This document shows positions 1 to 21,813 of a DNA stretch of 32,897 nt, piece by piece; the stretch's first letter is position 1; each line of letters opens with the position of its first letter. The notes beneath the pieces are model-generated. The model was given only the letters and a program-made list of their open reading frames with translations. It had not been told where the DNA came from and searched no databases. The position numbers and the translations under genes were made by a program. Where the stretch lies: the NCBI GenBank assembly GCA_030037755.1, contig JASHQD010000424.1, positions 1-32,897 on the forward strand, given 5' to 3'. The stretch is from Terriglobia bacterium. GTDB lineage: Bacteria; Acidobacteriota; Terriglobia; UBA7540.

Positions 1-124
1 GATCCGTGATTCCCAATTGCGCCGCTGCCGCTCGCTGCGTCAAGTGTCCCTTCTTTACCTCATGCAACACCTTCAATCGGTCCCGCTCTCTCGTGCTTAA
101 CACCAGCATCTCCTGTTCGCTCAT
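1..124 (-). CDS. ISNCY-like family transposase, N-terminal fragment (continues beyond the left edge)
   Basis: Reverse complement from ATG at 124-122 reads MSEQEMLVLSTRERDRLKVLHEVKKGHLTQRAAAAQLGITD, open to the window edge; matches the helix-turn-helix N-terminus I associate with ISNCY transposases. Not in the supplied ORF track because it has no stop inside the window. Confidence 0.7.
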   Translation of the reverse strand, partial: MSEQEMLVLSTRERDRLKVLHEVKKGHLTQRAAAAQLGITD

Positions 125-193: not shown

Positions 194-313
194 GACACTG
201 TCGCGCGTAACCTCGCCGATTGATGCTCAGTCGTGGTAATCTTCGCTCGGGTGGCAAATCGCGCCGTCCCAGGCAGGTTGCACATTGCGTGCGGTTCCGG
301 ATTCGGAGTGTCT

Positions 314-790
314 GTGAGCTGCGAAAAACAAAGTCCGCCGGAATTGCCGGGCTGCCAGGAAGCGAACGGCCCGCTCGACTTCCAGCTGAGAATACTGAGC
401 GACCCGCGGCTGCTGGCGGTCGTGAGGTGCACGGTCGCGGAGTTTGCAGCCGTGTCCGGTTTCAAGGAAGATCAGTGCCGCTCGATCACACTGGCCGTCG
501 ACGAGGCGCTGAGCAACATCATCCGCCACGCTTACAACAATCGGCGCGACCAGGAAATTGAGATGAGATTGCACGCGGACATCGGCTGCCTGGAGTTCAC
601 TTTCGTCGACCGCGGCGAACCTTTAGATCGTTCCAAGTATTGCGCCCAGCCCCTGGACGCGGTGGCCCTGGGCGGACGGGGCACTCACCTGATCCGGCAG
701 ATCATGGACGAGGTGGTTTATGAGCGCGTGTCCGAAGGAAACAGGCTGCGCTTGAAAAAGTACTTGCCCCCAGCGAGGCTCACGCCTTGA
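314..790 (+). CDS. RsbW-type anti-sigma factor / serine-protein kinase (HATPase_c_2)
   Basis: N-box DEALSNIIRHAYNN, FVDRGEPLD and GGRGTHLIRQIMDEV motifs; ORF open from 233, GTG start at 314 is a plausible alternative. Confidence 0.85.
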   Translation: MSCEKQSPPELPGCQEANGPLDFQLRILSDPRLLAVVRCTVAEFAAVSGFKEDQCRSITLAVDEALSNIIRHAYNNRRDQEIEMRLHADIGCLEFTFVDRGEPLDRSKYCAQPLDAVALGGRGTHLIRQIMDEVVYERVSEGNRLRLKKYLPPARLTP

Positions 791-825
791 CTCACTTGTT
801 AGACGATAAGCGAGACGCAACCCCC

Positions 826-1152
826 ATGAAAATCTCCACGCGCGAGTTGAACGGCACCACCATTGTGGATGTAACCGGCGAGATCGATATGAGTACCTCG
901 CCCGGTTTTCGCACGGCGTTGCTGGAGTCGCTGAAGAAGACGCCCCGTTTGGCGGTAAACCTGACAAACGTGCGATACGTCGACAGCTCCGGAATTGCTT
1001 CCCTGGTCGAGGTGCTGAAAGCGGCGCGCATCAGCGACAAACGCCTGGTTCTGTTTGGGTTGAATGAGCCGGTCCAGGAGGTTCTGCAACTGACCCGGCT
1101 GACAAAGATCTTTGAGATTCGGAAGACCGAAAAAGAGGCGCTGGAAGTGTGA
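826..1152 (+). CDS. STAS-domain protein (anti-sigma factor antagonist / MlaB-like)
   Basis: MKISTRELNGTTIVDVTGEIDMSTSPGFR...VRYVDSSGIASLVEVLK, typical STAS fold with DSSG motif; the track ORF begins at 787 with a less likely start. Confidence 0.88.
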   Translation: MKISTRELNGTTIVDVTGEIDMSTSPGFRTALLESLKKTPRLAVNLTNVRYVDSSGIASLVEVLKAARISDKRLVLFGLNEPVQEVLQLTRLTKIFEIRKTEKEALEV

Positions 1153-1219
1153 AGTGCCAGGGATGGGCGCTCCAAAAGAGGCGACGGTCGAAGGATGAAC
1201 GGACGCTGCAGGAAGGTTC

Positions 1220-2038
1220 ATGTTGAAGACGCAGGATAAGGTCACCGCGCTACCGGCTCGAGTCGGGCTTGAGACGCTAAAGGGTCTAGCCTACCTCGGG
1301 GGATTGGCGCGGCTCACCGGCGAGTCCGCGTACTTGACCCTTGCGAGCCCTCTCAAGGGGCAACGACTGCGGGCGCAACGCGCCTTTCACCAGGCGATGG
1401 ACGTCGGCGTGGGGGCAGTGCCGATCGTTTCCCTCATCAGTTTCTTCGTGGGCCTCATCATCGCGCTGCAGAGCGCGTATGAACTGCGGCGTCTTGGGGC
1501 CATTGAATTCGTGGCCAATGCGGTAGCGATCTCGATCATACGCGAGTTGGGCCCGCTGATCACCGCTATCATCGTAATCGGCCGGTCGGGTTCGGCCTTC
1601 GCGGCTGAAATCGGAACCATGAAGGTCACCGAAGAAGTCGATGCGCTCAAGACAATGGCCATCAGCCCGGTGGCATTCCTGGTGGCGCCCAAGTTCCTGG
1701 CGATGCTGGTGATGGTGCCGTGCCTGACCATCTGGGCTGACGCCATGGGGGTTCTGGGCGGCTGCCTCTTCGGTGTGACAGGAGCCGATTTCACGGTGTT
1801 GTCGTATCTCCAGGCCACACGCGACGCCCTGGTTCTGCACGATATCTCCACGGGCCTGGTGAAGAGCGCCCTGTTTGCGGTCGTCATCACCGCGGTCGGT
1901 TGCCATGAAGGATTCTCAACCGGTGCCGGCGCCGAGGAAGTTGGTCACTCCACTACGGAGGCAGTCGTGAAGTCGATTTTCATGGTGATCGCGGTCGATC
2001 TGGTGTTTACGGCTCTTTTTTACCTCACCAACGGCTAA
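1220..2038 (+). CDS. mlaE: MlaE family lipid ABC transporter permease
   Basis: MlaE/YrbE-like permease signature: RELGPLITAIIVIGRSGSAFAAEIGTMKVTEEVDALKTMAISPVAFLVAPKFLA. Confidence 0.93.
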   Translation: MLKTQDKVTALPARVGLETLKGLAYLGGLARLTGESAYLTLASPLKGQRLRAQRAFHQAMDVGVGAVPIVSLISFFVGLIIALQSAYELRRLGAIEFVANAVAISIIRELGPLITAIIVIGRSGSAFAAEIGTMKVTEEVDALKTMAISPVAFLVAPKFLAMLVMVPCLTIWADAMGVLGGCLFGVTGADFTVLSYLQATRDALVLHDISTGLVKSALFAVVITAVGCHEGFSTGAGAEEVGHSTTEAVVKSIFMVIAVDLVFTALFYLTNG

Positions 2039-2920
2039 GGCCGAAATGCCGGGTGGGATCCCCTTTGCCGAGTCGGAACACAACCTCTCCTGGGTATTTG
2101 TTACTCGTTTTCTTCTAAGCGGCTGAAAATACGGAGCAAATAAATTTTCTCACTTTTGTCACTTTTCCCCACTGTCTCAAATTTCGAGTGCACACTATCG
2201 GGTGGCTGTGGAGTCGATGGTCAAAAGCTGGCGGGAGCCGCTCGCCAGGAAGCAAGGAGCCGGAGGTTTGAACCCGCGACGGCTCGCGCGCGACAGCCTG
2301 CACCAGCGTCCGACGAGACCCGCCGGCAGCAGGCAGAGCCTATATTGAGAGCCCAGGTCATGATTCAAGCGCGAATCTCCGGGATTGTTCGAGGCGAGCC
2401 GTCAAGAGGACGAAAGCACCATCACTTGCTCTCCGTTTATCTCCATGGAGCCTCCCTGCCCCAAGTCGCGCGCCAAGCGCGCCTGAAAGCCACTCATCGC
2501 CATCGCTCTATGTCTTTGGAAGGACAGCGTTTACGCCAGGAGATCGATCTTGAGCGGAGAGCGATCGCCTCCCCGCTGCGGACGTTGCAGATACGGCTTC
2601 ATACGGAGCCTCTTGCGCGAGGCTATAACAATCGGGGAAAGGACGTCAACAAGGCAAAAAAGATCTTAGAAAAAGGGCCGCCAAAGCCACTAAGCCATTT
2701 AGAATCAGCACGGGTCTGCAAAAAATCGTCAAAAAAGGCCTCGCCAAAGCCACTCGCGGCGCGGAGGCCGCGGGGACGACGAGCCACACTAACTGCCTTT
2801 AATACAATTCGATGCTGTGATGTATACGATCCAGTCGCAGCAACGATGAAATCTGCCAAAGCCATTATTTCGGCCTTGCGAGTCCTCCTACTCGGGATAA
2901 GATGATGGGGGAGCAGTTCG

Positions 2921-3745
2921 ATGAGCGAGCCTCTTACCGCGCCCGGACAACCGGCCATCTCCGTCGTGAACCTGCGGGTAAGCTACGGCGAGCGGGAGGT
3001 TCTGCACGGCATAACCTTCGAGGTGCAGCGCGGAGAGACTCTGGTGATACTGGGCGGCTCCGGTTCGGGCAAGAGCACATTGCTGCGGACGCTGGTGGGG
3101 CTCGAGAAACCGAGCAGCGGCGAGGTGTGGATCGAGGGTGTGAACATCGCCCAGGCTCCCGAACGCCAATTGGACGAGATCCGAAAGAAGATGGGCGTCT
3201 CTTTCCAGGGCGGCGCTCTTTTCGGTTCCATGACCGTGGGCGACAACGTGGCGCTGCCCTTGCGCGAACACACCCAGCTCGAAGAATCGACGATCGAAAT
3301 CATGGTGCGGATCAAGCTGGAGCAGGTCGGCTTGGCCAGCTTCGAGGATTTCATGCCCTCGCAGCTGAGTGGTGGGATGAAGAAGCGGGCCGCAGTCGCT
3401 CGCGCGCTGGCGATGGACCCCGAGATCCTGTTCTTTGACGAGCCTTCCGCCGGCCTCGACCCGATCATCGCGGCGGGAATTGACGACCTGATTCTCGAGC
3501 TGAAGAAGGCCTACACCATTTCCATCATCGTCGTCACACACGAACTGGCCAGCGCCTTCCTGATCGCGGACCGCATGCTCCTGATCGACCGCGGGAACAT
3601 CATCGCCGCCGGCACGAAGGCGGAACTGGCGACGAGCACCAACCCGCACGTGAGACAATTTCTCGACCGCGTTCCCGAGCCTCAGGTGGAGGACGAGCTC
3701 AATTATTTGCAGATGTTGACGGGGGACCGGAAGGCGGCAGAATAG
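2921..3745 (+). CDS. mlaF: MlaF-type ABC transporter ATP-binding protein
   Basis: Walker A GGSGSGKST, signature LSGGMKKRAAVARALA, Walker B EILFFDEPSAGLDP; adjacent to MlaE and MlaD. Confidence 0.95.
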   Translation: MSEPLTAPGQPAISVVNLRVSYGEREVLHGITFEVQRGETLVILGGSGSGKSTLLRTLVGLEKPSSGEVWIEGVNIAQAPERQLDEIRKKMGVSFQGGALFGSMTVGDNVALPLREHTQLEESTIEIMVRIKLEQVGLASFEDFMPSQLSGGMKKRAAVARALAMDPEILFFDEPSAGLDPIIAAGIDDLILELKKAYTISIIVVTHELASAFLIADRMLLIDRGNIIAAGTKAELATSTNPHVRQFLDRVPEPQVEDELNYLQMLTGDRKAAE

Positions 3746-3856
3746 TGGTCTTCCGAGAATTTGAGGCTTTCGGCTGGGTTTCGAGCAGATGATGAACAAA
3801 TTGATCCATGTCGAAGGGCTTTTCTTATCGCCTTGTAAGGACGCGGGACCGGGAGA

Positions 3857-4825
3857 ATGCGTATGAATTCGCGTGGCGAGCAGGTGTGGGTGGGGTTGTT
3901 TGTACTGGTCGCCACCGCTCTGCTGGTTGCGAGCGTGCTCTTTGTCACCGGGGCTTTCAGCCGCGGGAATATACCACATCGGACGTACGTCAACTTCGCG
4001 GGCGGCCTCGAGCCGGGCGCCGCGGTCCGGTTCGGGGGCATGAAGGCCGGCGCGGTCCGTGCGGTCCATGTGGACCCGCAAGACTCCACGCGGATCGAAG
4101 TCGATTTCGACGTGGCCCGCGACATTCCATTGAAGAGCGACAGCGTAGCCAAGATCACGAGCCTCGGGCCGCTCGGCGACAACTATCTGGAACTCAGCAC
4201 CGGCACGCGCGGGGCGCGCCCGGCGGAGCCGGGCAGCGTGTTGAATTCGGCGCAGTCGTTGAGCTTCGGCGACCTTGGCGATATGGTCGGCAGCCTCCAG
4301 CCGATGGTCCAGCAAACGCTCGAGAAGCTGAACGATCGGCTCGACGAGCTGCAAGTAACGGTGGCCCGCGCCAATGACCTGCTGAACGACCGCAACCGGG
4401 CCAACATCGGCGGGTCGCTGGCCAATGTCAACGGCATGCTCGCTGAGGACCGGCCCAAAGTCTCCGCCACTCTGAACAACGTGCAGTCCGCGAGCGAGCG
4501 CCTCACGCCGCTCCTCGACGATTTGAAGAAGACGATGGCGCAAGCCAACGACGTTCTGGGACACATCGACGCGGTTGTGGTTGAGGACCGTCCGGACTTG
4601 AAGGCTTCGCTCGTGGAACTGCGCCAGACGCTGGCTACGGCATCGTCGGTCATGGATCAGCTCAACCGGACCCTTGACTACAACGCCGACAACATCGACG
4701 AGACCCTGGCCAACATCCGGGTGACGACCCAGCACCTCAAAGATCTGACGGCGACTTTAAAGCGGCGGCCTTACACGCTGATCCGCGCCGACAAATCCCC
4801 CGAGCGTAAGCCGGGAGAGCAATAG
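3857..4825 (+). CDS. mlaD: MlaD/MCE family protein
   Basis: N-terminal TM segment, single MCE domain (YVNFAGGLEPGAAVRFGGMKAGAVRAV...ITSLGPLGDNYLELS), long helical C-terminal region. Confidence 0.92.
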   Translation: MRMNSRGEQVWVGLFVLVATALLVASVLFVTGAFSRGNIPHRTYVNFAGGLEPGAAVRFGGMKAGAVRAVHVDPQDSTRIEVDFDVARDIPLKSDSVAKITSLGPLGDNYLELSTGTRGARPAEPGSVLNSAQSLSFGDLGDMVGSLQPMVQQTLEKLNDRLDELQVTVARANDLLNDRNRANIGGSLANVNGMLAEDRPKVSATLNNVQSASERLTPLLDDLKKTMAQANDVLGHIDAVVVEDRPDLKASLVELRQTLATASSVMDQLNRTLDYNADNIDETLANIRVTTQHLKDLTATLKRRPYTLIRADKSPERKPGEQ

Positions 4826-4842
4826 GAAGGGCAACTGCGTTC

Positions 4843-5454
4843 ATGCGCCGAACGATACTCCTCATCCCGATCCTGTTCGCGACGGTGACGCTGGCCTCCT
4901 GCGGCAGCGGGCGCCCCATCCACTACTACACCGTCGATCTTCCGGCGGGGCCGGAGCCTACAGCAAGAGTCTATCCGGTTACCCTGCTGATCGGTCACAT
5001 CGGCGGACCCGAAATCCTGATGGACCAACCCATCGCCTATCGCGTCGGTCCGAATGAGATCGGCACGTATCAGTATCACCTTTGGGATGCGGCGCCGGTG
5101 CAAATGCTGAAAACCAGCCTGCTTCGCCGGCTTCGTGCTTCGGGCAAATATCAATCGGTGGCTGAGCTCGGCAGTTCGGCCCAGGGCGAATACGTGCTGC
5201 ACGGCAGGCTGTACGATTTCGAGGAGGTTGATGCCGGCGGCATGTCCGGGCTGGTGTCCATGGAGTTCGAACTGGATGACCGCAAGGATCGCAAGATGGT
5301 CTGGAACCACTTTTACTCCCACAGCGAGCCCGTTCAAGGCAAGACCATCGCCGATGTGGTCGCGGCGCTCGACCGCAATCTCCGGCAAGGCCTCGATGAG
5401 GTTGTCTCCGGTCTCGACGGGTACTTCGCCGCCAACTTGCACGCCGAGCCCTGA
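4843..5454 (+). CDS. PqiC/ABC-type transport auxiliary lipoprotein
   Basis: Lipobox LASC after a signal peptide; IHYYTVDLP... and YRVGPNEIGTYQYHLWDAAPVQML resemble the ABC_trans_aux family; position downstream of MlaD. Confidence 0.78.
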   Translation: MRRTILLIPILFATVTLASCGSGRPIHYYTVDLPAGPEPTARVYPVTLLIGHIGGPEILMDQPIAYRVGPNEIGTYQYHLWDAAPVQMLKTSLLRRLRASGKYQSVAELGSSAQGEYVLHGRLYDFEEVDAGGMSGLVSMEFELDDRKDRKMVWNHFYSHSEPVQGKTIADVVAALDRNLRQGLDEVVSGLDGYFAANLHAEP

Positions 5455-5502
5455 ATCAGCGCGCATTCGGCGGTCATCACAATAAGGGAGGGTTCGGTTT
5501 CG

Positions 5503-6270
5503 ATGAGTGCCGGGAGCGAGCGGCTGGCGTGCTTCGAGTTGTGGGGCGGAAACCGCGACGCAGATCATCTGGTGGAGTTGCCGGGCCTGGCCGGATGGGT
5601 TTACTCGGCGCCGTTCGATCCTGGTTCGGGCGGAGGAGACGTTCACTACATTTCCGTGTGCAGCCGGGGCCTGATTTCACGCATCGTCGTGGCCGATGTA
5701 GCAGGCCACGGCAGCGACGCCAGCCGGATCGCACAAAACCTGCGCTCCGTTCTGCAGCGCCACACGAACAACCGGGATCAGTCCGCGCTGATGCGGGAAT
5801 TGAATCAGGCTTTTGTTCCCAGAGCTGTCAGGAGCCAGTATGCCACCGCCGCGGTGTTCAGCTTCTACGTAGAAACGGCGGAATTGGTCTTCAGTAACGC
5901 GGGTCATCCCCCGGCGCTCTGGTACCGGGTGAAAGAGGATTCCTGGGAATTGCTGGAGGACGATACGGCGTTCGCGGTAGAGATCGAAGGATTGCCCCTG
6001 GGCCTGATCCCGGGGACCAGTTACTCACAGACCGGCGTCCGGCTGGGCGTGGGAGATGCGCTGGTTCTTTACACGGACGGGATCACGGAAGCGATGGATT
6101 CCTCGGGCGCCGAGTTGGGCCACACGGGACTGCTAAAACTGGCACGGGGCCTGGAGGTTGGGGCCCCGGCTGACATGGCTCGGGAGCTGATTGCTGGAGT
6201 GAGGCGCTTCACCGGGAACACACGACCCCGGGACGACGAGACTTTGGTTGTCCTCCAGCACGTTGTTTAG
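5503..6270 (+). CDS. SpoIIE/RsbU-type PP2C serine phosphatase
   Basis: GGGDVHYISV, VADVAGHGSDAS, FSNAGHPPALWY, LVLYTDGITEAMD, RDDETLVVL: conserved PP2C_SIG motifs with acidic metal ligands intact. Confidence 0.9.
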   Translation: MSAGSERLACFELWGGNRDADHLVELPGLAGWVYSAPFDPGSGGGDVHYISVCSRGLISRIVVADVAGHGSDASRIAQNLRSVLQRHTNNRDQSALMRELNQAFVPRAVRSQYATAAVFSFYVETAELVFSNAGHPPALWYRVKEDSWELLEDDTAFAVEIEGLPLGLIPGTSYSQTGVRLGVGDALVLYTDGITEAMDSSGAELGHTGLLKLARGLEVGAPADMARELIAGVRRFTGNTRPRDDETLVVLQHVV

Positions 6271-6305: not shown

Positions 6306-7565
6306 CTACTTCACCTTGACATCGGGTTCCACGGACATGCCGGGCCGCAGAAGATGCTCGGGGTCCTGGCCCTTGTCGAATGTGATCTTCACCGGGATGC
6401 GCTCCACCACCTTGACGTAGTTTCCGGTGGCGTTCTCGGGCGGCAGCAGGCTGTAAAGGGCGCCTGTAGCGCCGCCGATGTTGAGAACGTGACCGTCGTA
6501 GTCGCGTCGATAGGTGTCAACGTGGATCTTCACCGGCTGGCCGGGCCTCATATAGGTCAACTGCGTTTCCTTAAAGTCGGCCGTCACCCAGATGTTCTGG
6601 CTGTCGAGGGGGACGATGGTCATCATTTGCTGGCCCGGCGAGACGTTCTGGCCCGGCTGGACGCTTCGCTGTCCGACGATTCCGCTCACGGGCGCCAGCA
6701 CGGTGGTGTATTGCAGGTTGAGCTGAGCCTGCTCGAGCGCCGCCTGCGCCTGTTCCGCTTGCGCCTGTGCGGCCTCCGCCCGCGACCTTTGCACGGAGAT
6801 TTGTTGCGGACGCGTCTCGGCGTAGGTCAGGTTGGCTTGCGCCTGGGACACGCGGGTCCGCGCCCCGGTCACGGTCTGCTCCGCCGCGGCCGCCGACGAT
6901 CGGGCGGCTTCGACACCGGCGGCTGTGGCCTTCTGAGAGTCCACTGCCTGAGTGTAGATCTGCTGGGCGATTTCGTCCTTGGCTGCCAGCGGCTTGTAGC
7001 GGCTGACGTCGTCCTGCGCCTTCAGGTCGTTCGCTTCGGCCTGCCGCAGCGTGGCCTGCGCCGACTCAAACTGCGCCTGGGCCGCCGCCAGGGCGGCCTG
7101 CGCGTTGTCAACATCCGCCTGGGCTGACGAGAGCTGGCTCGAAGTGTTGACCGAAGTCAACGGCACGCCGACCCGCGCCGCCTCCGAGGTGGACTTCAGA
7201 TTGGCGAGAGTGGCCTTGGCGTTGGCGACGGCCACGTTATAGTCCTTGGGATCGAGCTGCGCCAGCACGGTGCCCGCCTGCACGAACTGGTTGTTGTCCA
7301 CCGTCACGCGAACCACGTAGCCCGGCACGCGGGAGCTGACGGGGTAGATGTAGCCGTCGATCTCCGCATCGTCGGTGGACTCGTAGGACTCGATGTAACG
7401 ATACAGCGGGATCGCGGCCGCCACCAGGATCAGCCCGATGACGAGGAAAATGATCAGGCGGCGCGTCTTCCTGCGCTGCGGAGTGGATCGCGGGCCGCCT
7501 GGTCCTGTGCTGCCGATGCCCGGCCGTGCGCCCTGCTCGGGAGTTTCCGTCGCTGTAGTGGCCAT
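6306..7565 (-). CDS. emrA: HlyD/EmrA family membrane fusion protein
   Basis: Single TM, barrel-sandwich halves, alpha-helical hairpin rich in A/Q, TTVLAPVSGIVGQRSVQPGQNVSPGQ. Start set at MATTATETPEQ (7565), not the longer track ORF which overlaps TolC. Confidence 0.9.
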   Translation of the reverse strand: MATTATETPEQGARPGIGSTGPGGPRSTPQRRKTRRLIIFLVIGLILVAAAIPLYRYIESYESTDDAEIDGYIYPVSSRVPGYVVRVTVDNNQFVQAGTVLAQLDPKDYNVAVANAKATLANLKSTSEAARVGVPLTSVNTSSQLSSAQADVDNAQAALAAAQAQFESAQATLRQAEANDLKAQDDVSRYKPLAAKDEIAQQIYTQAVDSQKATAAGVEAARSSAAAAEQTVTGARTRVSQAQANLTYAETRPQQISVQRSRAEAAQAQAEQAQAALEQAQLNLQYTTVLAPVSGIVGQRSVQPGQNVSPGQQMMTIVPLDSQNIWVTADFKETQLTYMRPGQPVKIHVDTYRRDYDGHVLNIGGATGALYSLLPPENATGNYVKVVERIPVKITFDKGQDPEHLLRPGMSVEPDVKVK

Positions 7566-7566
7566 T

Positions 7567-9003
7567 TTATTTTTCTCCGAGAAAGTGCAAGGCAGACTGC
7601 TCGGCGACGCCCATGGCTTGCGCCAGAGAGACCTTCGCCAGGTTGTAGGAGTAAAGGCTTGCGATGTAGGACTGCTGGGCCGAGGCGACCGACTCCTGAG
7701 CCTGGACAACCTCAAGATTGTCCGCGACGCCGGAGAGGAACCGGTCCTGCGCCTGCTTCAGTGTCTCGTTGGCAAGGTCGACGTTGCTCCTGGCCACCGC
7801 TACCAGGTCCGACGAAGACTTCAGATTCAGGAAGGCCGTGCGGACCTCGGCGTCAATCTTGCCGCGCAAGTCTTCAAGTTCCGCCTGGCGCTGCCGCAGG
7901 GCGCTATCGGCCTGGAGTTTGTCCGCGCGAACGCGCGTGCCTTGAAAAATAGGAATGTTCAACAAGGCCTCGAAGGTGAACGTCTCATGCGAGTAGGCAA
8001 AGTTCGGACTTCCGATGTCGCCGAAATCCGTTGAGACGGAAAGCGAGGGGTAATTCTCGGCGCTCGCGGCCTGGATCGAGAGCTCGGCCGATCGGACCTG
8101 TTCCTTGGCGCCGAGATAGTCGGAACGGGCGGCATACGCCTGCTGCAAGGCCCCGTTGATAGTCATCTCGTCGAGCGGCGCGTAAGGTACGGCGTCGGTC
8201 AACTGGAACTCCTGGCCGTTCGGCAAACCGATGATGCGCGCCAGCGTCAGCTTGTCGATGTCCAGTTGATTCTGTGCGGCGATCAGGCGCTGCTCCTGGG
8301 TCTGGAATTCCACCTGCGACCGAAGCTCATCAATGTTGGCGACCACGCCGGCCTTGTGCTGGTCTGACGTCTTCTGGTAAAGAGCTTTGGCCGTCTCCAC
8401 CTGGGCGCGCGTCGAGTCCACGGTGGCGGCATCCGAAACCACCACGAGATAGGCGTCGGCGGTGGTCAACACCACAAGCTCCCGGTCGTTCTTATAGGTG
8501 TCCTGGGATGCCTTCTCTGCTGCGCTGGACGCTTTCAGGTTCTTCTGAGCCGCCCAGTCGAACAAGTCCTGGGAGAAAGTCGCTCGCGCGTCCTGAACGG
8601 CGAAAGGCGGCGTAATGGTAGGAATGTTGACCCCCGGAATGTGAATGTTGAAGCCGAAGGTCTTGAGATTGATCTGCTCCACGCTGTTGCTGATGTGGGC
8701 GTTAAGATTCGGCAGCAAGGCGTTCAGGCTGCGCAGACGCTCGGCGCGGGCGGCGCGCATCCCCTGATCGGACTCGATTACGCCCAGGTTGTACTTCAGG
8801 CCGCGGTCGAGGGCGTCTCTCAGCGACAGCGAAAGCGGGCCGGATGTGGCCTGACCCGTGGGCACGCTGCCGAGGAGCGGGTTCTGTGGCGTGGTGCCCG
8901 CCGCGCCGGACTGTCCGGCACCCGGCTGTGCGGCACACAACAAGAGAGCGGCAGCGAGAGCTAGAGTTACTGCAGAATCGAAAACGCGCCGGTCACCAAT
9001 CAT
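7567..9003 (-). CDS. TolC family outer-membrane efflux protein
   Basis: Signal peptide MIGDRRVFDSAVTLALAAALLLCAAQPGAG, two OEP repeats (LSLRDALDRGLKYNLGV..., ...DLVAVARSNVDLANETLKQAQDRFLSGVADNLEVVQAQES). Confidence 0.92.
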   Translation of the reverse strand: MIGDRRVFDSAVTLALAAALLLCAAQPGAGQSGAAGTTPQNPLLGSVPTGQATSGPLSLSLRDALDRGLKYNLGVIESDQGMRAARAERLRSLNALLPNLNAHISNSVEQINLKTFGFNIHIPGVNIPTITPPFAVQDARATFSQDLFDWAAQKNLKASSAAEKASQDTYKNDRELVVLTTADAYLVVVSDAATVDSTRAQVETAKALYQKTSDQHKAGVVANIDELRSQVEFQTQEQRLIAAQNQLDIDKLTLARIIGLPNGQEFQLTDAVPYAPLDEMTINGALQQAYAARSDYLGAKEQVRSAELSIQAASAENYPSLSVSTDFGDIGSPNFAYSHETFTFEALLNIPIFQGTRVRADKLQADSALRQRQAELEDLRGKIDAEVRTAFLNLKSSSDLVAVARSNVDLANETLKQAQDRFLSGVADNLEVVQAQESVASAQQSYIASLYSYNLAKVSLAQAMGVAEQSALHFLGEK

Positions 9004-9032
9004 TGCGCCTCCGGTGTCGTGGAACGAACGCC

Positions 9033-9659
9033 TCAGATTCCGAGGTTCTGGAACAGCCCAACAACGTTGAGGATGGTCTGGGCAGCCGCGCCATCCCCCA
9101 GGGTCGAGTTGATCATGAGATGAAAGCGGTGCCGGTCCGGCCACTCGACGCCGAAATACTGCTTGATGTAGTCCGCGCGGTCGCGGTCTACGGTTTCCGC
9201 AAGCTCGGTAGCTTCTTTCGCGTCCTTGCCACCGGCTTGCAACCTGCGAACCTTCTGGTCAAACGGAGCGTAGACAAAGACATGAAAAGCATCGTCACGG
9301 TTTTGCAGATAGTAGGCGGAGCCGCGCCCCACAATCACGCAGTTGCCCTCTTCGCCGGCGCGCTTCACCACTTTTTCCGCGACCTCACGGATGCAATCCG
9401 CATCGACCATCCTCATCCGCGCTGCGTTTTGAGTGCCTTCGTGGCTGCCTCGCATGAAAGATTTAAAGAGCCGGTAGGACAAGGGGTCCCGTCTCTCTTC
9501 ATGCTTTTCCACGGCCCGGCAATCGCAGTCCATCAGCCGGGCGATCTCATTGGTCAACAACTGGTCCCAGAGCTTCCAGCCCAGACGTTCGGCCACTCTC
9601 CTGGCGATATCACCGCCGCCGCTTCCGTATTCGCGCTCAATCGTAATCACTCGAATCAT
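9033..9659 (-). CDS. Cytidylate kinase-like family protein
   Basis: MIRVITIEREYGSGGGDIARRVAERLGWKLWD P-loop region and overall length match the cytidylate kinase-like family (PF13189 by memory). Confidence 0.82.
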   Translation of the reverse strand: MIRVITIEREYGSGGGDIARRVAERLGWKLWDQLLTNEIARLMDCDCRAVEKHEERRDPLSYRLFKSFMRGSHEGTQNAARMRMVDADCIREVAEKVVKRAGEEGNCVIVGRGSAYYLQNRDDAFHVFVYAPFDQKVRRLQAGGKDAKEATELAETVDRDRADYIKQYFGVEWPDRHRFHLMINSTLGDGAAAQTILNVVGLFQNLGI

Positions 9660-9683
9660 GGTCGCCCCCGTCAGACAAAACGC

Positions 9684-11315
9684 TCACTCCATCATCACAC
9701 TTCCACCGCCCGGCTGATTCTTCCTTAGCGCGAAGGAAAGCAAAAACAGAACAGCCGCTCCCGTCCCCAGAATCGTGAACATGTCGATGTAAGCCAGGGT
9801 GCTAGCCTGCCCGATCAGGGCTTGATAAAGCATCCCCGAGGCTTTCTGCGCGGCGAGATTCGCTTGCACCCCCGATGCGGCCAGGCGCGCGGCCAAAGCC
9901 GAACTCGCCTGCGCGAATGCCGGCTGTCCCGAGGTGATGTGCTTCACCATGTACGCCTGACGTACCTGGGCCCGGCGCGCGAGCACGGTCGTGACCATCG
10001 ATGTTCCCACGCTGCTCCCGATGTTGCGCATAAAGTTGAGGAGGCCGGACGCGCTGTTGCTCTTTTCCAGCGGCGTTGAAGAGAACCCGACGAGGTTGAT
10101 GGGAACGAACAGGAACCCGAGGCCGAACACCTGAAACATACGGAGCACGCTGGCGCTGCCGAAACTGATTTGAAGGTCGAGTCGCCGCGTGGAATAGAAC
10201 ATGCCGATCGAGAGCGTCAGCCAGCCGAAGGCGATCAGGTAGCGCGCCTGGACCCGGCCGGCGAGAGCTCCTGCCACGGGCATGAGGAAGAGCAGCAACA
10301 AACCGCCGCCCGACAGCACCAGCCCCGCCGATTCGGATGTGTAGCCCAGCAGCGTCTGCAGGAACAGGGGCATCATGACGAGGCTCGAGAACAGCATGAT
10401 GCCGACCGTGAATATCATAAAGTTCGCGCCTAGGAAGTTCAGGTTCTTGAACAGGCGCACTTCGATGATGGGGTTCTTGTAAAACAATTCCCAGATAACC
10501 AGCGACAGCAGGCCTACACCGGCGATGATGGCAAGTGTCACGATGAAGTGCGATCCGAACCAGTCGTCCTCCTGGCCTTTGTCGAGCATGATCTGCAGCG
10601 CCCCGACGCCAAGCGTGAGCAGCGCCACGCCGATGTAGTCGATCTTCACTCCGGCACCCGCGCGCTCCTTCACCCAGGGAGGGTCTTCAACCACGCGATA
10701 GACCAGGAACAACGTCAGAATGCCAACCGGGACGTTAATGAAGAAAATCCAGCGCCAGGTATAGTTGTCCGTGATCCAGCCTCCCAGCGTCGGGCCGATA
10801 GTGGGAGCCACGATGGCTGTGATGCCGTACAAAGCGAACGCCAGGCCGCGCTTCTCCGGAGGAAAGGTGTCTGCCATGATCGCCTGGGCCATCGGCTGTA
10901 ACCCGCCGCCACCCGCTCCCTGCAGCACCCGGAAAGCGAGGATCGCGGTGAGACTGGGAGCACTGCCGCACAGCACAGAGCTGATGGTGAATATCACCAG
11001 GCAGATCATGAAAAAGCGTTTGCGCCCGAACGCGTTCGCAAACCAGCCGCTGATGGGTAGCACGATGGCGTTGGAGACGAGGTAGGAAGTCAGCACCCAG
11101 GTGGCTTGGTCATTGCTTGCCCCGAGGCTGCCCGCCATGTAAGGCAGCGCGACATTAGCGATGCTCGTGTCGAGCACCTCCATGAAGGCCGCCAGGGCGA
11201 CGACCACGCCGATCAGCCACGGATTGAACTTCGGTTTCCAGGGTTCATGTGCCGGAGGCGGTGCGGCGCTTCCGGCGCTGTTCTCCTTGGGAGGCGAATT
11301 GGAATCATCTGCCAT
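9684..11315 (-). CDS. emrB: DHA2 family MFS multidrug transporter, EmrB-like
   Basis: 14-TM MFS; LDTSIANVALPYMAGSLGAS, GWFANAFGRKRFFM, LAFRVLQGAGGGGLQPMAQAIMADTFPPEKRG motifs. Confidence 0.94.
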   Translation of the reverse strand: MADDSNSPPKENSAGSAAPPPAHEPWKPKFNPWLIGVVVALAAFMEVLDTSIANVALPYMAGSLGASNDQATWVLTSYLVSNAIVLPISGWFANAFGRKRFFMICLVIFTISSVLCGSAPSLTAILAFRVLQGAGGGGLQPMAQAIMADTFPPEKRGLAFALYGITAIVAPTIGPTLGGWITDNYTWRWIFFINVPVGILTLFLVYRVVEDPPWVKERAGAGVKIDYIGVALLTLGVGALQIMLDKGQEDDWFGSHFIVTLAIIAGVGLLSLVIWELFYKNPIIEVRLFKNLNFLGANFMIFTVGIMLFSSLVMMPLFLQTLLGYTSESAGLVLSGGGLLLLFLMPVAGALAGRVQARYLIAFGWLTLSIGMFYSTRRLDLQISFGSASVLRMFQVFGLGFLFVPINLVGFSSTPLEKSNSASGLLNFMRNIGSSVGTSMVTTVLARRAQVRQAYMVKHITSGQPAFAQASSALAARLAASGVQANLAAQKASGMLYQALIGQASTLAYIDMFTILGTGAAVLFLLSFALRKNQPGGGSVMME

Positions 11316-11403
11316 ATTCGGCTTCTATCGACACTACACCAACTGAATGAATTCGGATCGTGCGATACGGCAGATTACGGTGGTGGGCGCCCACCCCCGT
11401 TTC

Positions 11404-12255
11404 TTAGACGCTGGCCACAGGGCAGGGTGCGTCACGCACCACGGCATAGGTGAGGTCGCGCAGACGAACGCCAACCTCCGAACCTCTTCCAATGATGAGC
11501 ACATCCGCAGCCAGGCGACGGGCGGTCGCGATCAGGGCGTCTTTGATCGGACCGGTAACCACCTTGACCGTGGCATGGGAACCTGCGCGACGCTGCAGCT
11601 CCGCGATGCGCTCTCGCGCCAGGTTTTGTTCCCTGGATTGCAGCCCCTCGTCGAGGTCGAGCTGACGTTTCGAGTCGGGTTCGCCGCTGGCAATCGCATG
11701 GACGATCGAAAGATTGGCGTGGATGTCCTCCGCCATCTGCCCCGCGACCCTAAGGATCCTTTCGGAGTCGTCCCGCAGGCTTACCGCGCAGACCAATTCC
11801 CGGTGATCGAGGGGCCGGGGAGCAATCGTCTCAGCGTGCTGTGTGGTCATGACCGGGCAATCGGCGTCGTTCAGAATCTTGGCGGTCGTGGAGCCGATCA
11901 ACATCCGCCGGAACCTGCCGGCGTGAGTCGGCATAACGATGAGATCGAAATGCCGCTCCCGGACGACCTCAGCGATTCGAGTGGCGGCATCTCCAATCCG
12001 CAAGAGCCTTGTGCAGCCTTCGAGCGGAAAGTCCTCGACCAGGAAAGAATTGAGCCGCTCACGCGCCGCGTGTTCGCGGTCCTCCTCCATCTCCCGCAAG
12101 GAGCGTTCGAGGAGCTCAAAGCCGGATGAAGCGAGGTCGAATACGTAAAGAAGGGTCAGGTGGGCCGACAACATCTGTGCGGCCCTCTTCACGAACGGCG
12201 CCATGGCCTCGCAGGAAGGCGAAAAATCGACGGGAAACAGAATCTTCTGGATCAT
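11404..12255 (-). CDS. Universal stress protein, tandem UspA domains
   Basis: MIQKILFPVDFSPSCEAMAPF...LIVMPTHAGRFRRMLIGSTTAKILNDADCPVM plus a second, more divergent half ending VLIIGRGSEVGVRLRDLTYAVVRDAPCPVASV. Confidence 0.88.
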   Translation of the reverse strand: MIQKILFPVDFSPSCEAMAPFVKRAAQMLSAHLTLLYVFDLASSGFELLERSLREMEEDREHAARERLNSFLVEDFPLEGCTRLLRIGDAATRIAEVVRERHFDLIVMPTHAGRFRRMLIGSTTAKILNDADCPVMTTQHAETIAPRPLDHRELVCAVSLRDDSERILRVAGQMAEDIHANLSIVHAIASGEPDSKRQLDLDEGLQSREQNLARERIAELQRRAGSHATVKVVTGPIKDALIATARRLAADVLIIGRGSEVGVRLRDLTYAVVRDAPCPVASV

Positions 12256-12309
12256 TGGCATGGGATCGCGTCCAACGCCCACCTCAAAGGCTCGAAGCTT
12301 GGCGCCGAC

Positions 12310-13743
12310 TTACGCGGCCGGTGGGCTCGTCTTGGGCTGCATGAGGGGTAAGTAAACCTGGAACCGGGTGTCGCCCGGGTGAGAGGTCACACGAATTTCG
12401 CCGTGATGGTTTCTCACGATCCGGCAGACCGTATCCAGACCAAGGCCTGTGCCCTCGCCAACCCCCTTCGTGGTGAAGAAGGGCTCGAAGATGTGGGGCT
12501 GAACATCGGCCGGAATGCCCGGGCCGTTGTCGCGGATCTCCACCAGCACCCGATCAAGCTCAAGGGCGGTCCGCAGATGAATCTCGCCCTTACCCTGCAT
12601 GGCCTCGATGGCGTTGTCGAGGAGGTTTGTCCAAACCTGGTTCAACTCGCCACCATAAGCGCAGATCTGCGGAATGTCCCGCCCGTACTCACGAACGACC
12701 TTGATGCCGGATTTAAGCCGGTGACCGAGAATCGCCAGAGTGCTCTCGAGTCCCTGCTGGAGATCCACCTCCTGCATGGCGGCACGATCCATGTAGGAGT
12801 ATTCCTTGATCGCACGGACCAGATCGGAGATCCGCCTCGTACTGTTCTCAATTTCCCCAAGCAGCCGGTAGATCGTGAGTATCGACGCGATGCGAACCAT
12901 AGCGTCGCTCACCACCGCGGCCCCGACCTCGCCAGCCAGCCCCTCCAGCCTGGTTGTTTCCACGCCCATGTCAGCGAGAACCGGAGCGATTTTCCAGGAG
13001 TTGGCGACCTGATGTTTCTCCAGCCAGCCGCCGATCTGGTCCTCACGATCGCTCTGCGCCAGCGGGTCCGCGGGAACTGCGGGTACAAAGTGGGTGGCCT
13101 CACTCTCGAATTGGAAAATGCTCTCGCGTTGCTCGCCGGAGAGGGCGTGCCGCGCCAGGCGGATGCTGGCCTCCCGCACCGTCTCGAGCGCCTCGCGCAG
13201 GCTGGCTGCAGCGCGTCCGGCAGCGGCCGCTGGATTGTTCAATTCGTGGGCGAGACCAGCGGAGAGCTTGCCAAGCGCCGCCAGTTTATCCCGCTGAGTC
13301 TCGATTCGGGCCGTTTCGCGAATCCGGTCTGCCAAGAGCGCCACGAGGCGCTGGCCAATCTCCGGAATCCGATGGAGCATCTCGGGGATATTGTCCTTGT
13401 GCAGGCGCAACATTCTTGTGGCCGCGAGAGCGCGTCCGGTCCCGCGGATCTGCGTCAGTCTCGAGTACGGAAGATAGCCCGTGATCTGGCCGGCGGAGAC
13501 AGTGAATACCGGAGCGTCGGGATCATCCTCGCGCTGAAAGCGGATTTCTCCCTCCAGGATGACCACAAGCCATACTGCCGGGTCACCTGGCCGGGCGAAG
13601 ATTTCCCCGGGCTCACAGCGAATCTCTTCGGATTTATCAACGAACCAGGCCAGGTGCTCGTGAGAGAGATCGGAGAATGTATGGACTTTGCGCAGATCAT
13701 TGATCAGCGCTTCCGTCCGCTCATTGACTTCAGTCTGGGCCAT
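12310..13743 (-). CDS. Cyclic nucleotide-binding-domain sensor histidine kinase
   Basis: N-terminal cNMP-like beta-roll (GEIFARPGDPAVWLVVILEGEIRF...), H-box LSAGLAHELNNPAAAA, N-box NQVWTNLLDNAIEAM, G-boxes DNGPGIP and GTGLGLD. Confidence 0.92.
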   Translation of the reverse strand: MAQTEVNERTEALINDLRKVHTFSDLSHEHLAWFVDKSEEIRCEPGEIFARPGDPAVWLVVILEGEIRFQREDDPDAPVFTVSAGQITGYLPYSRLTQIRGTGRALAATRMLRLHKDNIPEMLHRIPEIGQRLVALLADRIRETARIETQRDKLAALGKLSAGLAHELNNPAAAAGRAAASLREALETVREASIRLARHALSGEQRESIFQFESEATHFVPAVPADPLAQSDREDQIGGWLEKHQVANSWKIAPVLADMGVETTRLEGLAGEVGAAVVSDAMVRIASILTIYRLLGEIENSTRRISDLVRAIKEYSYMDRAAMQEVDLQQGLESTLAILGHRLKSGIKVVREYGRDIPQICAYGGELNQVWTNLLDNAIEAMQGKGEIHLRTALELDRVLVEIRDNGPGIPADVQPHIFEPFFTTKGVGEGTGLGLDTVCRIVRNHHGEIRVTSHPGDTRFQVYLPLMQPKTSPPAA

Positions 13744-13744
13744 G

Positions 13745-15415
13745 TCACACCGCGCTGAGATATTGATGAATGAACTGTACCGCTATGGAGCCCTCGCCCA
13801 CACCGGATGCGACACGCTTGACCGACCCGTGACGGATGTCGCCCGCCGCGAAGATTCCGGGAACGCTGGCCTCAAGGAGGAACGGAGGCCGGTCGAGCGA
13901 CCAGCTTTGCGGGAACTTCCCGTCGACTAACAGATCGCGCCCGGTGAGAATGAACCCCCGCTCGTCGCGCTGCACAACACCGTCGAGCCAGTCGGTGTTG
14001 GGCGCGGCGCCAATGAACACGAAAAGCGAATTCGTGGCCACCTTTTCGATTTTGTCGCTCTCCCCGCAGTGAATTGAGATCGCTTCGAGATGGTCGTCTC
14101 CGTGAACTTCCGCCACGGTCGCGCGCGTCTCCACCTGGACGTTCGGCGTCTGCTTGATCTGGTCGATCAGATAATGCGACATCGTGGCCGAAAGGGATGC
14201 GCCGCGAACCAGCATGACCACTTTCCGGGCATATTTGGAGAAATGCATGGCCGCTTGCCCGGCGGAGTTCGCCCCGCCCACGATGTAAACGTCTTCGTCC
14301 TTGCACGACAACGCTTCGGTCATGGCCGAGCCGTAGTAGACGCCCCGGCCCTGCAGGCCGTCGGCGCCAGGAACCTCCAGCCGCCGGTACCAAACGCCGG
14401 TGGCAAGCAGGAGCGCTTTGCAGCCGAGCTCACTCCCATCCGCGAGCTTAACCGTCCGCGACGCACCTTCAACCTTAACAGCGACCGCTCGCTGCGGGGC
14501 CAGAATTTCAACGCCGAACCGCCGCGCCTGCGCGACGGCGCGCCGGGCGAGGTCGGCACCGCTCAATCCGGAAGGAAACCCAAGATAATTCTCAATGCGC
14601 GAGCTCAGTCCGGCCTGGCCGCCCGGGGCTTCCATGTCAAGCATCACGGTGCAGAGCCCTTCGGAAGCGCCGTACACGCCCGCAGCCAGCCCGGCCGGAC
14701 CGCCGCCGATGATCGCGAGATCGTAAAAGGCCAACCCCGGACGCACCCGCAATCCCAACTTCTCAGCCACCTCTCCCGTCGTGGGCTGACACAGCGAACT
14801 TCCGTCCTCAAAGAGAACCACGGGCAGCCGGGACGCATCCGCCCCGATCGATTCGAGCAACCGGCGCACTTCAGCATCGCGATCTGCCGTTTCGACGTCG
14901 AGCCACTGGTACGGCGCCTGGCTACGCGCGAGGAACTCACGGACCGAGTAAGACTGGGGTGACCATCGCGTACCGAGAACCCGCACACCCTCAAACGGAG
15001 GCCGGAACGACGCGCGCCAGTCAGAGAGCAGATCGCTGAGTGCCGGGTAAAGACGTTCTTCGGGAGGGTCCCAGGGCTTCATGAGATAGTGATCGATCTT
15101 GGCGCTATTGATCGCATCAATCGCGGCGTCGGTATCCGCGTACGCCGTCAGCAGAACGCGTTTCGCGTCCGGAAAAAGCGTCATGGCCTGGGCGAGAAAC
15201 TCCACCCCGGTCATTTGCGGCATGCGCTGATCGGCCATGAGTAGCGCGACCGGCGCGTTTCGTCTCTTGAGCCCGCGCAGGGCTTCCAGAGCCGCACCGC
15301 CAGAGTCCGCGCGCAGAACTCTGTAATCCTCAGCGTATTGACGCCGAAGGTCGCCTTCGACGGCGCGCAACACCTCAGCATCGTCGTCGACCGTCATGAT
15401 CGCCGGTCTCGCCAT
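13745..15415 (-). CDS. Response regulator receiver fused to glutaredoxin-like and thioredoxin reductase-like FAD oxidoreductase domains
   Basis: REC (MTVDDDAEVL, LLMADQRMP, LLTAY, LMKPW); middle VRVLGTRWSPQSYSVREFLARSQAPYQWLDVE...LPVVLFEDGSSL glutaredoxin-like; C-terminal IIGGGPAGLAAGVYGASEG...VYIVGGANSAGQAAMHF...GIFAAGDIRHGSVKRVASGVGEG. Confidence 0.92.
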   Translation of the reverse strand: MARPAIMTVDDDAEVLRAVEGDLRRQYAEDYRVLRADSGGAALEALRGLKRRNAPVALLMADQRMPQMTGVEFLAQAMTLFPDAKRVLLTAYADTDAAIDAINSAKIDHYLMKPWDPPEERLYPALSDLLSDWRASFRPPFEGVRVLGTRWSPQSYSVREFLARSQAPYQWLDVETADRDAEVRRLLESIGADASRLPVVLFEDGSSLCQPTTGEVAEKLGLRVRPGLAFYDLAIIGGGPAGLAAGVYGASEGLCTVMLDMEAPGGQAGLSSRIENYLGFPSGLSGADLARRAVAQARRFGVEILAPQRAVAVKVEGASRTVKLADGSELGCKALLLATGVWYRRLEVPGADGLQGRGVYYGSAMTEALSCKDEDVYIVGGANSAGQAAMHFSKYARKVVMLVRGASLSATMSHYLIDQIKQTPNVQVETRATVAEVHGDDHLEAISIHCGESDKIEKVATNSLFVFIGAAPNTDWLDGVVQRDERGFILTGRDLLVDGKFPQSWSLDRPPFLLEASVPGIFAAGDIRHGSVKRVASGVGEGSIAVQFIHQYLSAV

Positions 15416-21162: not shown

Positions 21163-21813
21163 TCAGGCTCCGGGGCCGGCCAGAACGGCCTTGCGAAGGC
21201 CAAGGCGCCCCCGATAGAGCTGCGATTTGAGGGTTCCCGCCGGCACGCTCAACGCCTCAGCCGCTTCCCGGGTGGTCATCCCTTGAATGTCACGGAGCCA
21301 CACCGCTCGCTGGTGAGCTGCCGGCAGCGCCTGGAGTCGTTGACTGAAGATGCGAAAGCGCTGTTTGCGGGCGTAGGTTTCTTCCGGGTTGGGCCGCGGA
21401 TCGGGAATCCGGTAGGCCAGAGGCTGCTCGTTCTGATCGGATTCCTGGTCAATCGAAACGGCCACCCGCACGCGGGCGGCGCGAAGCCGCATCAGGGCCG
21501 CGTTGACAACGATCCTGGTCAGCCACGTGGACAATTGAGATCGGCCTTTGAAACCGCTGAGATTACGAAAGGCGGCCAGCATGGCGTCCTGCAGCGCGTC
21601 CTCGGCGTCGGCATGATTCCCGAGCAGGCGCAAGGCCGTGGTGTGAAGCACGGTCCTGTAACGACAGAAAACATCGCTCAATGCCTCGCGACCGTCTTCG
21701 ACGGCCAGGCGCGGCCGGACGCACGACTGCCGTGTCGATTGGTGTTTTGCTCTGGGTTGCAAGACCACCTCCCTTTCTCGTGCGGTAGCTACCACCAAAC
21801 ACCCGCGATGCAC
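21163..21813 (-). CDS. ECF-type RNA polymerase sigma-70 factor
   Basis: LGNHADAEDALQDAMLAAFRNLSGFKGRSQLSTWLTRIVVNAALMRLR (sigma2) and LPAAHQRAVWLRDIQGMTTREAAEALSVPAGTLKSQLYRGRLGLRKAV (sigma4). Exact start uncertain. Confidence 0.92.
   Translation of the reverse strand: MHRGCLVVATAREREVVLQPRAKHQSTRQSCVRPRLAVEDGREALSDVFCRYRTVLHTTALRLLGNHADAEDALQDAMLAAFRNLSGFKGRSQLSTWLTRIVVNAALMRLRAARVRVAVSIDQESDQNEQPLAYRIPDPRPNPEETYARKQRFRIFSQRLQALPAAHQRAVWLRDIQGMTTREAAEALSVPAGTLKSQLYRGRLGLRKAVLAGPGA

Follow-up and report, generated by a model that had tools for sequence, protein, structure and literature searches.

The window analysed here, a single contig of 32,897 nucleotides, comes from a Terriglobia bacterium whose 6.68 Mb genome is 86% complete and whose named relatives, in an MlaE-based scan, were Acidobacteria metagenome-assembled genomes and isolates. 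Between positions 233 and 6270 it carries an Mla-type lipid-transport operon accompanied by genes for a serine kinase, a STAS protein and a phosphatase of the partner-switching type. All seven genes lie on the plus strand, and every product scored above its Pfam cut-off:

233..790, plus strand: RsbW/SpoIIAB-type serine kinase, open reading frame (ORF) of 185 residues (HATPase_c_2, 3.2e-25)
826..1152, plus strand: STAS protein, 108 residues from ATG 826 (STAS, 1e-19)
1220..2038, plus strand: MlaE-type permease (MlaE PF02405, 2e-77)
2921..3745, plus strand: MlaF-type ABC ATPase (ABC_tran, 6e-33)
3857..4825, plus strand: MlaD-type MCE protein, 322 residues, with a long helical C-terminal part (MlaD, 9.4e-16)
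4843..5454, plus strand: PqiC/MpcA-like lipoprotein (ABC_trans_aux, 3.1e-15)
5503..6270, plus strand: SpoIIE/RsbU-type PP2C phosphatase, a catalytic domain without a sensor (SpoIIE, 3.3e-37)

The same seven genes had been listed in an earlier note on this DNA, and both the Pfam matches and the coordinates agree with that list. MlaE, MlaF and MlaD, the core of an MCE transporter, stand together in a single operon, and the best solved-structure matches of MlaF include the MlaF chains of Acinetobacter, Pseudomonas and E. coli. Residues 131-302 of MlaD gave coiled-coil-type matches in the Pfam scan, and by inspection the lipoprotein ORF has a hydrophobic signal followed by a cysteine (LASCGSG). 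Compared at the operon level, the combination of a PqiC-like lipoprotein with a long MlaD, and not with MlaC/MlaA, is that of Mpc-like systems. The best explanation of the locus is an Mla/Mpc-type trans-envelope lipid transporter, its transport role being predicted from these similarities. With E. coli MlaFEDB it shares MlaE, MlaF, MlaD and a separate STAS protein. In contrast, E. coli has a short MlaD whose partners are MlaC and MlaA, the window STAS protein is longer and anti-anti-sigma-like, and no kinase or phosphatase is known in the E. coli system. The Brucella Mpc system (PMC12436622) likewise combines STAS, MlaE, MlaF, a long MlaD and a PqiC-like lipoprotein in an operon without MlaC; however, its STAS domain is fused to MlaE (MpcE), and the parts of that report on which we drew describe no kinase or phosphatase for Mpc.

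The conserved core of the kinase ORF begins at about residue 49, and RsbW (6m36) and SpoIIAB (1til) are the closest to it among solved structures. As expected for a GHKL serine kinase, the N-box, G1 and G2 boxes appear intact by inspection, as do the PP2C motifs DVAGHG, YTDGITE and RDDETL of the phosphatase. The N-box was kept across the aligned Mla-linked kinases:

503..517, plus strand: kinase N-box E91-A-L-S-N95 (within VDEALSN)

Going by homology with SpoIIAB/RsbW, E91 is the putative catalytic glutamate and N95 the putative Mg/ATP-binding asparagine. The source genome holds a second STAS-kinase pair with a different kinase type, just downstream of ftsA/ftsZ-like genes on another contig (C744; L057, 5452-6265).

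Linkage of the kinase and phosphatase genes to the transporter

Relatives of the operon were collected by scanning 84,980 species genomes with MlaE and by genome searches at phylum and class level. Once duplicates were removed, 136 distinct Mla-type operons remained, 52 with and 84 without the kinase; these counts are not independent of each other, and only 6 independent pairs of kinase-bearing and kinase-less lineages can be drawn on the MlaE tree. The earlier note had made its reading depend on gene order being conserved in relatives. When 399 genomes of the class were searched with the kinase, the order kinase-STAS-MlaE was found at 30 of the 30 best matches, and MlaF came next after MlaE wherever the DNA reached far enough. 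Orthologues of the kinase occur in all 52 kinase-bearing operons, spread over several Acidobacteriota families, and across these the order persists down to approximately 40% kinase identity. One carrier is a culturable isolate, Acidobacterium sp. S8 (L083), whose genome holds the kinase and STAS genes followed by mlaEFD and the lipoprotein gene. Conservation of gene order was thus confirmed.

The linkage has a boundary. Among 60 larger regions that were compared, 20 of them around best kinase matches, it ended at weaker matches, where PP2C-PP2C-STAS-kinase or kinase-STAS clusters without Mla genes were found. Outside the class most of 30 kinase loci were STAS/PP2C clusters that lacked MlaE; apart from the window, the exceptions were L263 (genome G062) and L284 (G735), both with the order PP2C-kinase-STAS-MlaE-MlaF. 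In the kinase tree the Mla-linked kinases fall on one side, with local groupings that resemble those of the MlaE tree, and the deep split is weakly supported. Because of these loci and tree patterns, we regard the kinase-Mla linkage as specific and long-lived and not as something that RsbW-type kinases share in general. Another family of the class (f3) has PP2C-PP2C-STAS-kinase modules with no Mla genes (L208, L211, L212, L214 and L219); L216 and L218 resemble them, with one PP2C each in the DNA examined.

An operon clade close to that of the window lacks the kinase and has the acceptor motif DSAG (L081, L084, L085, L086, L087 and L090). That a kinase had been overlooked in kinase-less operons was considered and rejected, as those loci gave not even a weak kinase match. 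At least L084 and L090 have a different long ORF upstream, citrate synthase-like by inspection.

Within -4.5 to +7.5 kb of mlaE, a SpoIIE-type PP2C gene was present in 22/52 kinase-bearing operons and in none of the 84 kinase-less ones; in the subset with full flanks the corresponding figures were 10/25 and 0/45. The phosphatase gene lies downstream on the same strand in the window, L181 and L182, downstream and convergent in others (for example L072, L078 and L240), upstream on the same strand in L088, L192, L210 and L231, and divergent in L186. Its presence or absence changes nine times on the MlaE tree. The earlier note had described the transporter genes as bracketed by kinase and phosphatase. 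This holds for the window and for a small number of its close relatives; elsewhere the position of the PP2C gene varies, and bracketing is therefore one arrangement among several. Some of the operon-linked phosphatases carry FHA-GAF, PAS, HAMP or receiver domains. In two genomes whose operons have no adjoining PP2C (G234 and G246), homologues 66% identical are encoded elsewhere. The PP2C subfamily was also considered as an indicator of the module across whole genomes and rejected, since homologues also occur where the kinase search found none.

The STAS protein, its acceptor serine and MlaF

The STAS ORF opens at TTG 787, and ATG 826 is the likelier start. The protein matched the anti-anti-sigma factor TM1442 (4.8e-14), and in this alignment Ser54 falls on the phosphorylated serine of SpoIIAA/TM1442; the position of that phosphoserine, S58 in SpoIIAA, is one that we take as established. 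Ser54 is predicted to be equivalent to SpoIIAA S58 and to T52 of E. coli MlaB, an acceptor-type residue in the same motif.

985..987, plus strand: Ser54, predicted phospho-acceptor in D53-S54-S55-G56, serine in 52/52 kinase-bearing operons

The first serine of the motif was invariant wherever the kinase was present (50 DSSG and 2 DSSA). In kinase-less operons overall the position was occupied by S, T, C, A, G or D. Those with a separate STAS protein had DSAG (6), DSSG (5), DTSG (4), DASG, ETSG, DCSG or DTAG, and the second Mla operon of the source genome (C180, L054), also kinase-less, has DCSG. STAS-MlaE fusions had DSAG (14), DDFG (10), DSAA (5) and others. A phospho-acceptor that is needed only where a kinase exists would give such a pattern.

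Two further patterns connect the STAS protein to the transporter independently of its kinase. It forms the N-terminal domain of MlaE in 43 distinct operons, of the Desulfobacterota type and others in the same family, and it remains immediately upstream of MlaE in 19 operons without a kinase. In addition, MlaF ends in a short conserved motif:

3695..3721, plus strand: MlaF C-terminal helix ELNYLQMLT, residues 259-267 (Y262...L266), identified by motif conservation

In E. coli, Y261, L265 and L266 of the MlaF C-terminal extension enter the groove between MlaB and MlaF (PMC7367683), and Y262 and L266 of the window are the like residues. An aromatic-aliphatic tail motif was found in 65/68 operons with a separate STAS protein (47/49 kinase-bearing and 18/19 kinase-less) and in 1/39 with a fused one, and composition shuffles of the separate-STAS tails gave a rate of approximately 10%; these counts are descriptive, because the regular expression was written after the tails had been seen. 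The correlation of helix and separate STAS reflects few evolutionary events and is independent of the kinase data. In the predicted model of a relative (L184) the tail forms a helix. These features point to an MlaB-like contact between STAS and MlaF, with the tail as a putative STAS-gripping extension. The fusions, the retention of STAS without a kinase and the helix that tracks a separate STAS protein all support the proposal in the earlier note that the STAS protein is the MlaB equivalent.

Structure models were AlphaFold predictions of natural-frame read-throughs, in which stops were read as glycine (L184), and were judged by their scores and fold matches. The kinase-STAS read-through of L181, from the same genus, gave a pLDDT of 86 and a pTM of 0.77, and its parts matched SpoIIAB/RsbW and SpoIIAA/RsbV chains with a TM-score of up to 0.94 on the target. 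The pTM is compatible with a defined arrangement of the two domains.

A proposed switch and its alternatives

Phosphorylation of MlaB at T52 has been proposed and left open, without a known kinase (Thong 2016, PMC5016091; Kolich 2020, PMC7367683). In E. coli the T52E protein bound MlaF more weakly (PMC7367683), and the T52A protein was still bound with ATPase activity abolished (PMC5016091). We found no report of a kinase-linked Mla module in the full-text literature, a coverage that leaves out subscription papers and preprints.

Sequence comparison establishes that all parts of a partner switch are present at this locus, with motifs that appear intact and with co-inheritance, and without a SigB/F/G-type sigma factor. 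We estimate a probability of roughly 0.7 that a dedicated partner switch acts here on an Mla/Mpc-type transporter through its MlaB-like STAS subunit. In such a switch, unphosphorylated STAS would bind the helical subdomain of MlaF, aided by the MlaF C-terminal helix, and keep MlaF stable and coupled to MlaE, so that the transporter is on. Ser54 would lie at the centre of the STAS-MlaF interface, by homology to MlaB T52; its phosphorylation by the RsbW-type kinase would break the contact and turn the transporter off, and the SpoIIE-type phosphatase would reverse the reaction, with the versions in other lineages adding FHA-GAF, PAS, HAMP or receiver sensors. Our confidence in the direction, phosphorylated being off, is somewhat lower and leans on the MlaB work. 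MlaF would thereby stand where an RsbW/RsbV switch has its sigma factor. On balance we also favour the wider picture of a sigma-free switch, with MlaF replacing sigma, in which a former control of transcription gates envelope lipid traffic post-translationally. It would operate across much of Acidobacteriota, use interchangeable sensor phosphatases, and have locked counterparts in the fused STAS proteins with an acidic site.

The GHKL serine kinase, the D-S-S-G STAS protein, the SpoIIE-type PP2C and their folds match those of the RsbW-RsbV-RsbU and SpoIIAB-SpoIIAA-SpoIIE systems. The locus could accordingly be an ordinary partner switch whose target, a sigma factor or another regulator of transcription, is encoded elsewhere, with the Mla genes as co-transcribed members or targets of the response. 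The kinase and STAS proteins are indeed closest to RsbW/SpoIIAB and to anti-anti-sigma proteins, further sigma-70 family genes exist in the genome, and Acidobacteriota kinases of this family beyond Mla loci mostly lie in STAS or STAS-PP2C clusters. However, no sigma partner was found. As the earlier note had stated, the cluster has no sigma factor gene; the sole one seen in the window, of the ECF type, lies approximately 15 kb downstream on the minus strand (21163-21813), and nothing seen connects it with the operon. No match to TIGR02980 (SigBFG) exceeded the family cut-off in the genome, which is 86% complete; the best matches below it were a 572-residue ORF, which may be the housekeeping sigma factor, and a 302-residue ORF with sigma regions 2-4. 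The 117 proteins encoded beside 20 kinase-bearing operons included no recurrent sigma family. A kinase that binds only a sigma factor encoded elsewhere, which the earlier note had named as fatal to its reading, thus gained no support from either the genome or the neighbourhoods. Moreover, the STAS protein is tied to an ABC transporter: it is inherited with the transporter even in lineages that lack the kinase, and related operons encode it as a fusion to MlaE. MlaF, for its part, has a C-terminal helix of the MlaB-associated type. A sigma-directed switch is weakened by these results, and we consider it quite unlikely. Partner switches beyond the sigma-B/F setting are known from Vibrio SypA/SypE, where a STAS protein likewise works with a serine kinase and/or PP2C; there the outputs are control of biofilm or transcription (PMC4517449, PMC10120452), and in the literature we found on such switches an ABC transporter subunit was not described as an output.

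If the switch does act on the transporter, its logic may differ: phosphorylated STAS could be the active form, or the kinase could sequester STAS by partner competition. In favour of such a scheme are the retention of ATPase-dead T52A in complexes, the natural aspartate at the acceptor position of 14/43 fused STAS-MlaE proteins and the kinase-STAS model, whose pTM of 0.77 would be consistent with the two forming a stable pair. Against this stand the lowered MlaF binding of phosphomimetic T52E, the invariance of the acceptor serine wherever the kinase is present and the preservation of the kinase catalytic boxes, and such an inverted or competitive scheme seems unlikely. Chance or hitch-hiking, with signalling genes functionally unlinked to the transporter, appears very improbable. 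The component families are common, adjacency of the PP2C gene is inconstant and the kinase is missing from several lineages, but a kinase-STAS-MlaE order kept across several families down to approximately 40% kinase identity, and a PP2C gene whose several arrangements were all seen next to operons with a kinase, are hard to reconcile with it.

Several observations weigh against the transporter-gating switch that we prefer. In the STAS-MlaE-MlaF read-through of L184, where a short linker joins the MlaE C-terminus to MlaF, the parts fold (pLDDT 89) and the pTM is 0.57, the domains being placed without confidence. In 30/52 kinase operons the DNA examined held no PP2C gene, and PP2C homologues are present too in genomes without a kinase match. 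The source genome, itself incomplete at 86%, encodes a group-3-like sigma factor (C770). On the MlaE tree, none of the 6 pairs opposed the association of the kinase with either serine or PP2C, and significance is unreachable with so few. The inactivity of T52A, which cannot be phosphorylated at that site, complicates the assignment of the phosphorylated form as off, as do the fusions with a built-in phosphomimic (DDFG, DDCG, DDYG or NDFG; L111, L113, L121, L123, L125, L129, L131, L133, L136, L138, L139, L141, L142 and L150). The latter imply that, in the tethered form of STAS at least, a transporter can be retained with a negative charge at the acceptor.

The kinds of component are known, and their combination is new. 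A genetically linked kinase, often with a phosphatase, and an invariant acceptor serine make the MlaB phosphorylation hypothesis directly testable with few purified proteins. Were the proposed switch confirmed, partner switches would not be confined to transcription but could gate a membrane machine, and Acidobacteria could adjust their outer-membrane lipid supply fast through sensor phosphatases.

The mlaE-mlaF insertion and flanking genes

The gap between mlaE and mlaF is short in most relatives. In the window it holds additional DNA:

2039..2920, plus strand: repeat-derived insertion of 882 bp in the mlaE-mlaF gap (dispersed repeats)

The insertion is built from a unit of approximately 115 bp and one of approximately 490 bp, with 34 matches in its own genome, itself included; an ORF within it (2156-2902) gave no Pfam family. 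Because it consists of dispersed repeats and is absent from most relatives, we regard it as a lineage-specific insertion outside the switch. Extra DNA of 4-5 kb lies between mlaF and mlaD in three other loci (L075, 8687-13980; L076, 4119-9411; L189, flipped, 10683-14618).

A promoter and terminator scan of the locus gave a signal no better than chance. What lies upstream of the kinase gene is truncated, because the contig begins within a divergent HTH ORF (1-124, minus strand; partial, with weak HTH_23/HTH_28 matches), which resembles a transposase N-terminus. Directly past the PP2C gene, convergent genes on the minus strand (6306-11315) encode look-alikes of an EmrA/HlyD-type adaptor, a TolC-type outer-membrane protein and an MFS exporter.

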